DNA of 56,506 bases from a virus, in the IMG/VR virus record IMGVR_UViG_3300019762_000009, positions 1 to 56,506 of that record; one strand, 5' to 3'. The notes under the pieces were generated by a model. It was not told the origin of the DNA. It searched no databases and saw only the letters and a list, made by a program, of their open reading frames with translations. This document shows positions 9,540-56,148 of this stretch, piece after piece (within the stretch, counting starts at the first letter, position 1; each line of letters starts with the position of its first letter). The position numbers and the translations under genes are program-made.

Positions 9540-9623
9540 ATGAAGAAAATCCACAGACCTAAGACAAAAGGCTATAGACGTATGCAGAAAAGTCGTGCTT
9601 CTAAGAAGGAAGGCGGTCCGTAA
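9540..9623 (+). CDS. Very short basic peptide
   Basis: 27 codons, with 11 Lys/Arg residues out of 27 (begins MKKIHRPKTKG). Upstream AGGTAG is only a weak ribosome site. It lies directly before a strong promoter. Could be a DNA- or RNA-binding micropeptide or simply non-coding. Confidence 0.3.
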   Translation: MKKIHRPKTKGYRRMQKSRASKKEGGP

Positions 9624-9648
9624 TGCATGAAGTTTCTGCAAAAAGTTC

Positions 9649-9676
9649 TTGACAATTGCGGAAACTATGTTATAAT
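9649..9676 (+). promoter_or_regulatory. Consensus sigma70 promoter
   Basis: TTGACA (9649-9654), 16-bp spacer, TATAAT (9671-9676). The AT-rich leader that follows holds GTACTTATGTAC and GTACTTTATGTAC palindromes, possible operators, before the gene at 9818. Likely drives the replication block. Confidence 0.8.
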
Positions 9677-9817
9677 GTACTTATGTACAGGGTGTCAAGG
9701 ATACTGATTATGGTTATTTAGTAATTGATAATTAGTATTTAAATTAAATAGTATTATGTATACAAGTACTCATTCTGACTGAGTTATCATACATGTACTT
9801 TATGTACTGGAGGTCGT

Positions 9818-10102
9818 ATGACCAAGAAGGAATTAGAACTTGAACTTAAAAAGTCTCAAGCTCAGGTGCGACACCTCCTTCGCACAATAAACAGACATTG
9901 CTACGCCTGTTCAGGCAATGTTAAACGTGAGGTAGAAAGATGCCCTCTGCACTTAGAGCAAAAGAATGGCTCATTAGTACAAGGCTGTTGGTTGTATCCT
10001 TACAGGATGGGGATGTGGCCCACAACAGTGAAGGCTACCGTGAGCGGGAGTGGTGTGCCAACATACACGCCCCCTAAACGTAAACGGAAAACTTCTCGCT
10101 GA
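9818..10102 (+). CDS. Small zinc-binding phage protein
   Basis: 94 aa, GGAGG five nt upstream. After a helical N-terminus, C28-x2-C31, C42 and C57 followed by WLYPYRMG form a pattern seen in many small phage proteins (two Cys, then Cys, then C-x-L-x-P-x-R-x-G), thought to bind zinc. The C-terminus is basic (PKRKRKTSR). Role unknown; first gene of the replication transcript. Confidence 0.75.
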   Translation: MTKKELELELKKSQAQVRHLLRTINRHCYACSGNVKREVERCPLHLEQKNGSLVQGCWLYPYRMGMWPTTVKATVSGSGVPTYTPPKRKRKTSR

Positions 10103-10152
10103 TTAACTAAGTATTGAATCAACGTATACACGACGGAATAAGGTATCCAGAT

Positions 10153-10419
10153 ATGAAGAAACTCTGGAATCTCATTATCAAAGTGGCAAAGGCTGTGAAG
10201 AGTATCGCTAACCAGATCAGGGAAGAGGTTGAGAAGCAAATCAAAAGGCTTCCACTCTTAAAGAAACTGAAGTTGGGGTGGCGTTGGCTCACACAGGGTA
10301 AGACTGTACAAGAAATTGTAAAGGATACCCTAGTCAGCCTGATCAAGGATAAAGCTTGTGATGTTCTGTATGAACAGTCACAAAAGCACCTTGGTTTTGC
10401 CCTTAATGTAAGTCTCTAA
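10153..10419 (+). CDS. Small basic helical protein
   Basis: 88 aa. Start at 10153 has AAGG upstream; an earlier in-frame start at 10114 lacks one. Strongly basic, amphipathic helices throughout and no membrane segment of full length. Family unknown. Confidence 0.65.
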   Translation: MKKLWNLIIKVAKAVKSIANQIREEVEKQIKRLPLLKKLKLGWRWLTQGKTVQEIVKDTLVSLIKDKACDVLYEQSQKHLGFALNVSL

Positions 10420-10429
10420 GGAGCATATA

Positions 10430-10861
10430 ATGCTGCACTGTTTAGCATGTGACGGCAGGGTGAGTGATCCGCTCCATGAACTATGTTCTGCATGTGAGTT
10501 CCTCTCTAAGAGAGTCTTCCCAAGTATGGGTGACTACAGAATTACATGTCAGCACGCAGTGCGGGAGCTTTGGCGAACACCACTAGTAACAAAACATCTG
10601 GACATAGAGCGTGATGCTGTCCCCGAAGAGTTACTAGTTGAGGACTACACGGAACTACAAGATGAGGATTTACAATGGCTCTCGTCACTTTTGACAGCAT
10701 CTTCCCTCCGAGCCTCGGCATCGGGGAGTCTGTCCGATGGAAAGGTTGCCCCTTCTGTGACCCCGATCACTACCGAGAATGTAGTAAGACGACTCGAACA
10801 GAACGAGGATGGAAGTTTTACTGTCATCGGTGTGGAAAAGGTAAGGCCAAGTATTCAGTAG
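10430..10861 (+). CDS. Zinc-ribbon protein overlapping primase
   Basis: 143 aa, AAGGAG seven nt upstream. N-terminal ribbon C4/C7/C19/C22. The frame stays open into the primase gene, so the last ~62 codons overlap primase by 187 nt in another frame. The N-terminal part is convincing; whether the overlapping C-terminus is made as read is uncertain. A -1 shift near the overlap would join the two frames, but no clear slippery site is seen. Confidence 0.6.
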   Translation: MLHCLACDGRVSDPLHELCSACEFLSKRVFPSMGDYRITCQHAVRELWRTPLVTKHLDIERDAVPEELLVEDYTELQDEDLQWLSSLLTASSLRASASGSLSDGKVAPSVTPITTENVVRRLEQNEDGSFTVIGVEKVRPSIQ

Positions 10862-11583
10862 GGTTTACACCTGCCGCAGCGAAAGCCCACCTATCTACAT
10901 GGCAGAAGCGTGGTGAACTGAGAACTAAGTCTATCTTCCTTCCCAAAGACTTCAACCAAAACATTCCACCACAAGGGTACAAGTGGTTGATCCAGTACGG
11001 AATTACCCCAGCCCTTATAGCCAAGTATGGTATAGGTTTTTCTGAGTACTACAATCGTGTGGTGCTACCCGTCTATCGGGGTAACGACCTAGCATACTGG
11101 CAAGGACGTAACGTAGGCAAGGCAACACAAGATAATCCGAAGTACTTGAATGTTTCCTGTGACAGGGAAGATACCTACTTCGAATTGTGGCAGAATGCTG
11201 ATGATCCAGAAGGGCCAATAGTCCTAGTAGAGGATATCCTTTCTGCAATCCGAGTACACGAAGCGGGATTTAATGCTATCAGTTTGCTCGGCACAAACCT
11301 TACAGAACATCTGCTTGCTAAGCTTATGTCCAAAACTTCCAATGGTAAATGCTACGTTGTGATCTGGCTTGATCCAGACATGCGGAAGAAGATGATAGGG
11401 TTTATCCCACGCTTCACTTCTCTTGGCATACCTACTCGTGTAGAAGTCTCTGCACAGGAAGACCCCAAAGATTACAAAGCCCATGAAATACAAGAGCGTC
11501 TTAAGAAATTTGAGAAAGCTCTTGACAAATCCACGGATATTGGTTATAATAATAGTACAAAGGGTGGGAGTGAAACAACATGA
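10675..11583 (+). CDS. DNA primase
   Basis: 302 aa. GAGG seven nt before the ATG. Zinc-binding domain C25/C28 and C50/C53, then TOPRIM-type catalytic elements: E186 in VLVEDIL, and D233/D235 in WLDPDMRKK. This matches the primase half of T7 gp4-type proteins, which synthesise short RNA primers for lagging strands. Here primase and helicase are separate, with a 4-nt ATGA overlap. A consensus promoter lies inside its 3' end. Confidence 0.88.
   Translation: MALVTFDSIFPPSLGIGESVRWKGCPFCDPDHYRECSKTTRTERGWKFYCHRCGKGKAKYSVGFTPAAAKAHLSTWQKRGELRTKSIFLPKDFNQNIPPQGYKWLIQYGITPALIAKYGIGFSEYYNRVVLPVYRGNDLAYWQGRNVGKATQDNPKYLNVSCDREDTYFELWQNADDPEGPIVLVEDILSAIRVHEAGFNAISLLGTNLTEHLLAKLMSKTSNGKCYVVIWLDPDMRKKMIGFIPRFTSLGIPTRVEVSAQEDPKDYKAHEIQERLKKFEKALDKSTDIGYNNSTKGGSETT
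11522..11550 (+). promoter_or_regulatory. Consensus promoter inside primase gene
   Basis: TTGACA (11522-11527), 17-bp spacer, TATAAT (11545-11550), all within the last codons of primase and 30 nt before the helicase start. Would allow helicase, polymerase and downstream genes to be transcribed apart from primase. Confidence 0.7.
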
Positions 11584-53033: not shown

Positions 53034-53062
53034 ATTATAGCATAAAATTATCAGATTGTCAA
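53034..53062 (-). promoter_or_regulatory. Late promoter, consensus sigma70
   Basis: Minus strand TTGACA (53062-53057), 17-bp spacer, TATAAT (53039-53034). Back to back with the rightward promoter of the HU-like gene, with 10 bp between the two -35 boxes. Confidence 0.85.
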
Positions 53063-53072
53063 TACTTTTTAC

Positions 53073-53101
53073 TTGACATCTTATAAAAAATATGATATAA
53101 T
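53073..53101 (+). promoter_or_regulatory. Consensus promoter of HU-like gene
   Basis: TTGACA (53073-53078), 17-bp spacer, TATAAT (53096-53101): perfect consensus. Starts a leader of about 125 nt before the HU-like ATG. Confidence 0.88.
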
Positions 53102-53236: not shown

Positions 53237-53749
53237 ATGAGTAAAACGAACATTGCAAAAACCTTAGAAGTAAATCCTCACGATTTCAATGAAGAGATGT
53301 GTAGTAGTAAACCTACTAATACATTTAGAATAAATGAATTTGCATCTTTGATAGAACCCACTACATTACTTACTCACGATGAGTGCAAAAAGCTAATTAA
53401 GTTTATCTTCTTTGTAATCGCTCAGAAAATGCGGGAAGGTTACAGAGTCGATATTCCGTATTTCGGTACATTCTATCCTAGATATCAGAAACCTAGAAAA
53501 GCTTTTAATGTACATACCCAAGAGAAGAGAGAACTCCCTGCAAGGATCATTCCCTGCTTCTCTCGTAAACGTATGCTTACAAGAATTATGGATGAAGAGC
53601 AGTATCATAAATATAAGAAAGCAGAACCTACAAAGATAAAAGGTCTCGATGCTTTAGCCGAAGAGTACGCCCATGTCTGCATCGGTGATGATTATACTAA
53701 GTACCTCTATCCAGAAGAATTTGATGACATAAAAACTACAGTGTGGTAG
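53237..53749 (+). CDS. HU/IHF-like DNA-binding protein
   Basis: 170 aa; AGGG six nt before the ATG (the frame from 53168 would start inside a leader hairpin). Residues about 30-115 match the HU/IHF fold: helices, then IPYFGTFYPRY (73-83), then a basic arm with NVHTQEKRELPARIIPCFSRKRML. Extra N-terminal ~28 residues and a ~55-residue C-terminal extension are unlike ordinary 90-aa HU. It could compact phage DNA or act in replication or late gene control. Own promoter and terminator. Confidence 0.8.
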   Translation: MSKTNIAKTLEVNPHDFNEEMCSSKPTNTFRINEFASLIEPTTLLTHDECKKLIKFIFFVIAQKMREGYRVDIPYFGTFYPRYQKPRKAFNVHTQEKRELPARIIPCFSRKRMLTRIMDEEQYHKYKKAEPTKIKGLDALAEEYAHVCIGDDYTKYLYPEEFDDIKTTVW

Positions 53750-53757
53750 TCCTTCAC

Positions 53758-53797
53758 AGGAAGTTATTAGAGAAATCTAGTAGCTTCCTTTTCTTTT
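53758..53797 (+). terminator. Intrinsic terminator with GAAA loop
   Basis: A 14-bp stem (some G-T pairs) closed by a GAAA tetraloop is followed by TTTTCTTTT. Makes the HU-like gene a single-gene transcript. Confidence 0.82.
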
Positions 53798-54112
53798 GTC
53801 TAACGGGCGGTTTGTATAGAAGTACTATATGGTCCTATCCCTGACTCTATGGGAAACCCATTACTCCTCTTACTCCCTGCATTGTAAGAATCTTCTGAAG
53901 CTTCTATTCCTACCCATGACTCTACCCAAACTAGTAAAAAATATTTTAGGAAATTTCTATATACATGGACGGAATATAATGATTTCAACCCACCTCTGTG
54001 CCCCTCCCCCACCTCCTCGGACCCCCTCGTACAAAATATCCCTCTGTAAACTCTCTTATGGCAAGGGGCGGTACCCTCCCAGACCTTACCTGAACAACCA
54101 GTGCTCCTATCA
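53798..54112. other. Non-coding pyrimidine-rich region
   Basis: No ORF with a ribosome site. Strongly pyrimidine-rich on the plus strand. The stretch 53989-54026 has runs of 3, 4, 5 and 5 C, so the minus strand has a loose G-quadruplex pattern with two long loops. Confidence 0.5.
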
Positions 54113-54243
54113 TTGATAATCATTTTCAATTGAGAACAATTCTCACTCTCATTTGATTATGATTCTCAGGCTCAGTTGACAACGATTCTCATTCTCTGTT
54201 GATTCTGATTCTCACTCTCGGTATCAGTTGAACACGATTGTCA
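54113..54243 (+). repeat. Six tandem Fur-box-like repeats
   Basis: Six copies of TTGA-N5-ATT(C/T/G)TCA start at 54113, 54130, 54153, 54176, 54199 and 54228 (spacings 17, 23, 23, 23, 29, differing by 6). Most form a 7-1-7 inverted repeat close to the Fur consensus TGATAATnATTATCA; unit 1 differs at one base and unit 2 is a near-perfect palindrome. No ORF starts nearby. Could be Fur-family binding sites, a decoy array, or replication iterons. Confidence 0.7.
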
Positions 54244-55176
54244 ATATCATTTCGGATAGTCCTACCTTCCCCTTATATAATGTAATAGTTCTTTTTCGAT
54301 TCTAAACCCTTCTTTAACCTTCCGTAGTATGTTCCTATCAAGTACCTCTTTAGAATGCCTTACAGGGCTATTTCTGGACGTTTTACGGTGCGTGGTTCAA
54401 AATAAAGTTTCTTGTACTTTCCTTCTTTATCGGTACAACTCTTTATACTTCCTTTACTGGCGTGCCTTCCTAACCTCTATTGATAAGGGTTCTCAATGAG
54501 TAGCCTCAGTATGGTACAAGATTTTGTACTGATATGGTCAGTTCTGGCAAGGTTGTACTTTCCTTTTATTATCCGGTCGCAAGGTTATACCTTTTTATTC
54601 TCTTGTCCTGCCTACGTTCTCACACTTTCTTTATTATCCACTTTCAAAGTTTGGCATGGTTGGCACGGTCGATGCTATAACCTTCCCAGATTCAGCAAGG
54701 GCGGTTTCTGGGGCAATTCCCCGCCGCTCTTCAATACGAATTTAGGACCACCAAAAACTTTCAAAAAGTTGTTGACAGTCCGAACGAGATAGACTAGCTT
54801 CTATCTCAAGGCGAACGGCTTAACTTGCTTGTTTGTTTATGCGTTATCAAGCGTCAATAAAATAGCTCCCTGACAATGAGTTTTAGGATAACGATATAAG
54901 CTCTTGACAATCCCGTTTAAGTTAACTAGCCTAAAGTTCAAGGCATGAGGGAGCCTTTAAAATTCTCACAAACTTTCGCTTGACAAGGCCTTTGAAGCTT
55001 TGATAGAGTGAACACAAGCCTAGCATATGGGGTGTACGTATGCCCGACATAGCTCCGATTAGTGGCAATCCCGCTATAGCTATAACGGTGATCTTTTACA
55101 ACTAAATAGTGAAAAATGTGTATCCTACTCAAATACGGGGTTAAGTACAACATACTAACCTATCAGGAGTAACATT
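54244..55176. other. Long non-coding region with promoter-like boxes
   Basis: No supported ORF. Contains a TATAAT at 54276-54281; an imperfect direct repeat (TTGTACTTTCCTT.. at 54412 and 54553); a palindromic hairpin GAGATAGA/TCTATCTC (54786-54807); and TTGACA boxes near 54772, 54904 and 54979 without a good TATAAT, the last followed by TAGAGT. These may be early or regulatory promoters for the gene at 55177. Confidence 0.5.
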
Positions 55177-56148
55177 ATGAGCTTAACTTTCGATTACGGC
55201 AGTTTGGCAAGTTCGGGTACAAACAAGTCCGGTAAACTGATTCGTTGCAAAGACTGCGAAAAAGCCTACCGAAAAGCTTTACACGAACTGGATCAAAACT
55301 TTGCCAAGTATTGCAAAGGCTTGCCGCAACACACACAGATTGACGAACATAAGCCAATGGCTATTTCAGGTCATATCCGTAAGCGGCAAGAAAAGGTCAA
55401 TCATACGCCTTTTGAAACACGTTTCTTGTTCTCAAAAAGCAAGTTTAATAAACGGCCAGTTTCAAAGGACGAAATGAAAATTCGGGCTAATGAGTTCTTG
55501 CAAAGTATCTCATGCCCACGGTGCAGGCACATCTTGCCGGACCGTAGGAACAAAAAGGCGGTGGAGGTTAACCACTACTGCGAAGACTGTTCCAAAATTC
55601 GAGAAGGCATTGAAAGACGCTTTACAAGAGCGTTAAAAAATGCTAGTAATATGTCGAATAAAGAACTGAAACGACTCCGTATGACATACCAGTATGAACT
55701 CGATACTGCACACTGTGAAAATTGTGCAACAAGTCTCAGATTGGTAGCTGTTCCCAAAAGTCCTTTTAAAAGCGTACCTGACCGTATTAAAGTCCGGAAG
55801 CGCAAGAAAAATGGCAAGCTTACAAAGTCCCGATATACTGAAGAATCAGCAAGGGATTACAAAAACGCCTTGACAAAAGCGAAACGTAAGCCTAAAGTGG
55901 AACGTGAAAGGGCCGTTGTTACCAGAACACGGGTAAAAACAAGCAGGGTTTCTGAGGCTAGAAAGGCTGAAGCCAATGCCCGTGAAGTTGCAAAGAACTA
56001 TTTTGCTGACCTCTTAGTTTTTAAGTACTGTACTCCGTACGGAAGTGGTATTGTAAAGGCTTTGAATGAAGTCGAGGCAAAACGTAAGATTTGCCACAAT
56101 CAAGGCTTGACAACCTTTCCACAAGACAGTATATTGGCTCCTGCATAG
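55177..56148 (+). CDS. Basic protein with four CxxC pairs
   Basis: 323 aa, AGGAG seven nt upstream. C24/C27, C113/C116, C135/C138 and C180/C183 suggest two zinc sites; the remainder is highly Lys/Arg-rich with long helices (about 140-175 and 225-275). Isolated in a mostly non-coding right end. A nucleic-acid-binding, early host-control role is plausible but not shown. Family not recognised. Confidence 0.7.
   Translation: MSLTFDYGSLASSGTNKSGKLIRCKDCEKAYRKALHELDQNFAKYCKGLPQHTQIDEHKPMAISGHIRKRQEKVNHTPFETRFLFSKSKFNKRPVSKDEMKIRANEFLQSISCPRCRHILPDRRNKKAVEVNHYCEDCSKIREGIERRFTRALKNASNMSNKELKRLRMTYQYELDTAHCENCATSLRLVAVPKSPFKSVPDRIKVRKRKKNGKLTKSRYTEESARDYKNALTKAKRKPKVERERAVVTRTRVKTSRVSEARKAEANAREVAKNYFADLLVFKYCTPYGSGIVKALNEVEAKRKICHNQGLTTFPQDSILAPA

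Follow-up and report, generated by a model that had tools for sequence, protein, structure and literature searches.

The DNA window analyzed in this work, an entire virus record from IMG/VR (56,506 b) that lacks end repeats, carries at positions 54113–54244 a tandem array of six TTGA-N5-ATTnTCA units, which match Fur boxes in sequence and geometry and recur as arrays in the genomes of unrelated phages. Judged from its sequence, this array would act, with a probability of around 0.45, as a sink that titrates host Fur as the phage DNA multiplies.

The portal protein and the DNA polymerase showed approximately 27–31% identity to those of HMO-2011-type podoviruses, of which the phage is, judging by these proteins, a distant relative. 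Neither the search of viral contigs with the HU-like protein, the DNA polymerase and a 323-aa protein, nor that of phage DNA with the window DNA, retrieved a close relative. Genes are directed rightward from 1 to 26 kb and leftward from 26 to 53 kb, and the array is housed in a 1.4-kb gap devoid of any recognised gene (53750–55176). Upstream of this gap, a gene encoding a HU-like DNA-binding protein (53237–53749, + strand; PF00216, E 4e-12; phrog_379, E 1e-13) reads towards the array, from which it is divided by a terminator-like hairpin with a T-rich tail (53758–53797, + strand) located 3′ of the gene. The end of the HU-like gene lies 363 bp from the array, and not about 500 bp as given in a previous reading of the sequence alone (hereafter, the sequence-only reading), while the roughly 930 bp stated there for the downstream side agreed with the 933 bp measured up to the next gene start. 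This next gene (55177–56148, + strand) encodes the 323-aa protein, which contains several CxxC pairs and for which a search for family matches returned none. In the window, an Rfam search detected no RNA family and a tRNA search no tRNA. Similarly, no Fur gene or Fur family protein was detected in the window, and therefore the reader of the boxes would be that of the host. Immediately to the right of the array, positions 54250–54780 are pyrimidine-rich, with recurring TTGTACTTTCCTT and TTTATTATCC motifs.

The six units start at 54113, 54130, 54153, 54176, 54199 and 54228, i.e., with spacings of exactly 17, 23, 23, 23 and 29 bp, which reproduced the places and distances of the sequence-only reading without any deviation. 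Its description of the units as 7-1-7 palindromes close to the Fur consensus was also borne out when they were scored against the 12 positions of the Fur core TGAnAATnATTnTCA. In particular, unit 1 (54113–54129; TTGATAATCATTTTCAA) matched 12/12 core positions and 13/14 of the 7-1-7 consensus, and is directly adjoined by unit 2 (54130–54146; TTGAGAACAATTCTCAC), with 11/12. The same core score was obtained for unit 3 (54153–54169; TTGATTATGATTCTCAG) and unit 4 (54176–54192; TTGACAACGATTCTCAT), the latter reaching 15/19 of the classical Fur box when the following hexamer is included, while unit 5 (54199–54215; TTGATTCTGATTCTCAC) and unit 6 (54228–54244; TTGAACACGATTGTCAA) scored 10/12, as did an outlying, weaker seventh unit at 54480–54496 (TTGATAAGGGTTCTCAA). 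The right half-site was perfect (6/6) in all six units, with the left half-site ranging from 4 to 6 out of 6 and being degenerate (4/6) in units 5 and 6. At a threshold of at least 10/12, TGANAATNATTNTCA matched 12 sites across the window, of which six lie within the array. By comparison, 200 Markov-shuffled genomes yielded a mean of 4.1 such matches and a maximum of two per 160-bp span, versus six in the array. With the 19-bp classical box (at least 13/19), seven matches were present in the array, against no more than three per 160 bp in 60 shuffles.

The sequences between the units were read according to the 6-6-1-6 hexamer model, that is, in 6-bp steps onward from each right half. On the + strand, this gave ACTCTC (54145), AGGCTC (54168), ATTCTC (54191), ACTCTC (54214), GGTATC (54220) and AATATC (54243), which follow units 2–6 (54145–54248) as extra half-site hexamers and agree with ATTnTC at 23 of 30 places, whereas 8.9 would be expected on the basis of the gap (P 5e-6). 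Although this register was picked after inspection of the sequence, it is also that dictated by the Fur model. Because these spacer hexamers would represent extra half-sites, most of the 23-bp units correspond, in terms of sequence, to one degenerate classical 19-bp Fur box (13–15/19) plus 4 bp. The change of spacing in steps of 6 noted previously was thus correct with regard to its stepwise nature, but the actual rule is 6n-1, with the spacers themselves reading as half-sites.

Recognition of the array by a Fur-type regulator is highly probable on these grounds. The E. coli Fur sites at fepA-fes, fepD-entS, entC, fecA and fecI scored 10–11/12 on the same core, and the array units (10–12/12) fall in the range of these five operators. 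The units fitted the consensus sequences of PerR, Zur and Irr more poorly (PerR, 8–11/14; Zur, 6–9/14; Irr, 7–10/12) than that of Fur (10–13/14). The scoring against Fur, Zur and PerR proposed in the sequence-only reading hence came out in favor of Fur, and an identity as PerR, Zur or Irr boxes is less likely. According to a published rule, a Fur box comprises at least 14 of the 19 bases of the classical box (PMC6922518). Five positions across the array reached 14–15/19, and unit 2 reached 13/19. Adjacent hexamer half-sites in a 6-bp register, a trait of Fur boxes, were present. The Fur reading is supported by the motif, the 19-bp box geometry and the half-site spacers, by the better fit to Fur than to the PerR, Zur and Irr consensus, and by the occurrence of similar arrays in phages of Fur-bearing enterobacteria. 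The overlap with a promoter that is typical of Fur operators was not observed, and since no close-to-consensus promoter is found at the array and the next gene starts 933 bp away, we refer to it as a Fur-box array and not as a regulatory operator.

A tandem pattern built solely from the units of the window was scanned across bacterial genomes, where it retrieved at least 117 stretches. Among the matches listed, nearly all had both boxes at 11–12/12, and they were almost exclusively canonical Fur boxes, often with a −10 box between the pair. One ferritin gene was among the sampled neighbours, as were, in two Pelagibacteraceae, genes for ferric-type solute-binding proteins, the others being unrelated genes.

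The window tandem pattern matched 32 stretches in IMG/VR viral contigs, compared with 2 for the complement control, and a stricter Fur-box pair at least 120, compared with 4 for its control. Among the 130 distinct viral clusters listed, only 8 fell inside an ORF of at least 80 aa. The others occupied tandem (45), divergent (24) or convergent (15) gaps or were located at contig edges (38). Where the closest large ORFs could be assigned to a family, they were in most cases phage genes (terminase, endolysin, tail, helicase), but bacterial in at least two cases. Terminase genes accounted for 9 of the 40 neighbour ORFs scanned (clusters L023, L028, L175, L177, L178, L183, L206, L253 and L271), which is above expectation as judged by eye, without a control set. 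Spacings following the 6n-1 rule represented 56 of 190 across the listed viral clusters, with about 32 expected. A strict helical or 6-bp periodicity over all of them was rejected, since the periodogram remained just below the 99% null, and we consequently treat the 6n-1 rule as a trait of the window array and of some isolates, not as a law. A 96.8-kb viral contig (L225, 6650–6934) harbors eight boxes at a regular spacing of 37–38 bp, a geometry unlike that of the window. Two candidates (L181, L204) were discarded as phage arrays, as they encode CHASE2-cyclase proteins, and four others (L004, L010, L011, L024) were discarded as Fur boxes, as they carry in common a different, TTGACAAAAATTGTCA-like palindrome pair. 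With regard to conservation in related phages, raised in the sequence-only reading, the eight distant HMO-2011-type relatives sampled showed no clustered Fur boxes, while array-bearing phages were found elsewhere. Inheritance from HMO-2011-type relatives was accordingly rejected, and the window phage probably gained its array separately.

Arrays or multiple boxes were also present in non-coding gaps of isolated phages, namely Justusliebigvirus, Phapecoctavirus, Vequintavirinae, RaK2 and T5-like phages. Exact Fur cores occurred in 11 of 11 array isolates, with none for the reversed pattern, a frequency biased by the retrieval of these genomes through a Fur-box query. Spacings were 17, 24, 29 and 23 bp in the Justusliebigvirus phages phiWec187 and phi92, 29, 29 and 29 bp in phAPEC8 and TSP7, and, among T5-like phages, 47, 29 and 35 bp in EPS7 and 35 and 35 bp in KpGranit. 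In phiWec187, T5_ev212 and FBKp34, the array sits between convergent genes. The 345-kb jumbo phage RaK2 has at least six strong Fur boxes in or near a 1.5-kb non-coding gap at approximately 225.6–227.0 kb (L044, 1746–3104). The T5-like arrays occupy a convergent non-coding gap close to the end of the LTR, and all nine T5-like gaps compared retain at least three boxes, with copy number and position varying. Conservation of the box columns (0.83–0.91) was slightly above that of the remaining gap positions (0.80). Selection on these columns was discarded given this small excess, the presence and number of boxes being conserved more than their position. The injection stop signal region of T5-like phages has been described as rich in repeats, palindromes and DnaA boxes, and the literature examined does not name Fur for this gap (PMC13250531). 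In T5_ev212 (9573–11308; L036, 2006–3741), the palindromic repeats close to this signal match Fur boxes. DnaA-like boxes lie within a few hundred bp of the Fur boxes in this type of gap, and the copy number of the 29/35-bp repeats differs among relatives.

The sink reading envisages six to seven degenerate Fur boxes in tandem, each F-N-R(-R) in hexamer notation, to which iron-loaded host Fur would bind, probably as a row of cooperating dimers. Once the phage DNA is replicated, tens to hundreds of such arrays would pull Fur off the host chromosome, and this depletion would lift the repression of iron uptake and of other genes under Fur control in the infected cell, possibly to the benefit of the phage. 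The Fur titration assay, FURTA, relies on the fact that Fur is titrated by multicopy Fur boxes (PMC3145626). We favor this explanation because a replicating genome with six to seven boxes is by construction a multicopy Fur-box carrier, and because no promoter can be recognised at these boxes. Clustered sites outside genes and away from promoters, as expected from a sink, were found in the gap. The unit scores, the preference for Fur, the half-site spacers, the canonical boxes retrieved in bacteria, the excess in IMG/VR, the scarcity of clusters inside ORFs, the convergent gaps of isolates and the boxes kept in nine T5-like gaps all counted in the same direction. Counted against it were the degenerate left halves of units 5 and 6, the lack of clusters in the eight HMO-2011-type relatives, the many IMG/VR arrays whose tandem or divergent gaps would permit promoter control, the only slight extra conservation of the T5-like box columns and the early entry of the T5 array at one or two copies. 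Several arrays also adjoin terminase genes, which argues against a plain sink, as such neighbours are not predicted by it. Out of the decoys for Fur, Zur or PerR suggested in the sequence-only reading, that for Fur would be the leading option, with Zur and PerR being less likely on consensus.

The main rival shares the binding of host Fur and is unlikely, and sequence tests cannot separate it from the sink. Here, Fur on the array would form a structural nucleoprotein block, acting as a boundary, a transcription roadblock, or an injection or packaging landmark. An analogous architectural role is that of IHF at lambda cos. At sites with multiple operators, Fur forms oligomers and condenses the DNA (PMC5007355), and the T5-like arrays are found near the LTR end, in what has been described as the injection stop signal (PMC13250531). 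The frequency of terminase genes among IMG/VR neighbours points in the same direction, as does the position of the window array, which is past the beginning of the late operon that includes terminase. However, the position relative to terminase genes or genome ends is inconstant, with terL 4.4 kb away in the window, and a terminase neighbourhood may just show where phages keep non-coding DNA.

The two remaining readings are less likely than either the Fur sink or the structural block. Most chromosomal Fur boxes act as promoter operators. The array might likewise be an iron-responsive operator that controls a promoter or a small RNA of the gap that has escaped annotation, a reading which we regard as improbable. 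In its favor are a −10-like TATAAT at 54277 and, in phiWec187 and RaK2, strong promoters that are aimed at the array over a distance of a few hundred bp. In the window, however, close-to-consensus promoters were confined to 53034–53101 and to positions from 54980 on, which fits the earlier view that ordinary promoter control is unlikely, and the two promoter-like sites scored at the array reached 9/12, i.e., background level. Furthermore, spacers of 1–13 bp could hardly accommodate a promoter, in contrast to the chromosomal pairs, which flank a −10 box, no Rfam family was found in the window, and several isolates have convergent flanks. The 53034–53101 pair comprises two divergent sigma-70 promoters with 12/12 consensus positions (TTGACA-17-TATAAT, with TG preceding the second hexamer), which serve the HU-like gene and the leftward genes. 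Similarly improbable is that the units are iterons or operators of a phage-encoded protein (origin, partition or repressor), their Fur likeness reflecting convergence of AT-rich palindromes. Direct repeats are indeed present, 17-bp palindromes spaced by about 23 bp resemble iterons and lambda operators, and the cumulative GC-skew minimum is close to the array, where the two gene arms diverge. This minimum, sought as a sign of an origin as the sequence-only reading had proposed, nevertheless merely tracks gene direction, and a lone DnaA-like box in the 1.4-kb gap (TTATCCACT at 54634, 8/9) constitutes weak evidence. None of the 20 early-region proteins scanned, many of them without a known family, could be assigned to initiators or repressors, and no Fur family member came up among the proteins scanned. 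Operators for a phage-specific protein would also leave unaccounted for the sharing of this motif by unrelated phages whose genes differ. The iteron origin and phage-protein array put forward previously thus keep a low probability.

Chromosomal Fur boxes (19-bp GATAATGATAATCATTATC; 7-1-7 TGATAATnATTATCA) have the same core bases, palindrome and hexamer geometry as the window array. The latter differs in its location, in a virus genome and off any close-to-consensus promoter, in its tandem run of six to seven boxes and in the degeneracy of their left halves. The T5-like gap (Tequintavirus, Epseptimavirus, Sugarlandvirus) resembles the window in its several Fur-like boxes with mostly 6n-1 spacings (29, 35, 47), located between convergent genes in variable copy number, while it differs in the ATGA...TCAT flanks and wider spacing of its boxes, in the DnaA boxes nearby and in having no sequence relation to the window. 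Justusliebigvirus (phiWec187, phi92) and their Phapecoctavirus relatives likewise have four or five boxes in a non-coding gap, but their units are closer to the consensus and they are unrelated phages with known E. coli hosts. Shiga-toxin phages carry a phage-borne Fur box in the Fur operator of the Stx1 genes, which, unlike the window array, is a single operator at one promoter of a lysogenic conversion gene and not a promoterless array. The datA locus is a sink for DnaA in which clustered sites away from promoters lower the free regulator. Both datA and FURTA (PMC3145626) resemble the proposed window sink in that clustered, promoter-distant sites reduce the free regulator, and they differ from it in that the window sites are virus-borne and their titration putative. 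Titles and abstracts on Fur boxes in connection with phages, titration or decoys, drawn mainly from openly accessible journal papers, did not describe any Fur arrays in phages, and broader literature searches gave the same outcome, which is weak evidence of novelty. Fur boxes and regulator sinks are thus known, and their combination in phage DNA appears to be new.

We tentatively propose that many unrelated lytic phage families separately acquired promoterless tandem Fur-box arrays as DNA decoys for the host iron regulator, in what would be a general, DNA-only remodelling of host iron metabolism, and that the T5-like Fur sites may also belong to the injection stop signal. If true, phages would steer host iron control through non-coding DNA instead of a protein, in a manner invisible to gene-centred annotation and cleanly testable with a 30-year-old assay. 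This would also provide a function for the unexplained repeat-rich gaps of T5, phi92 and RaK2, and would tie phage infection to the expression of siderophores and TonB receptors, including phage receptors such as FhuA. Phages may, in this way, use their own DNA to soak up or exploit the iron-control protein of their hosts.
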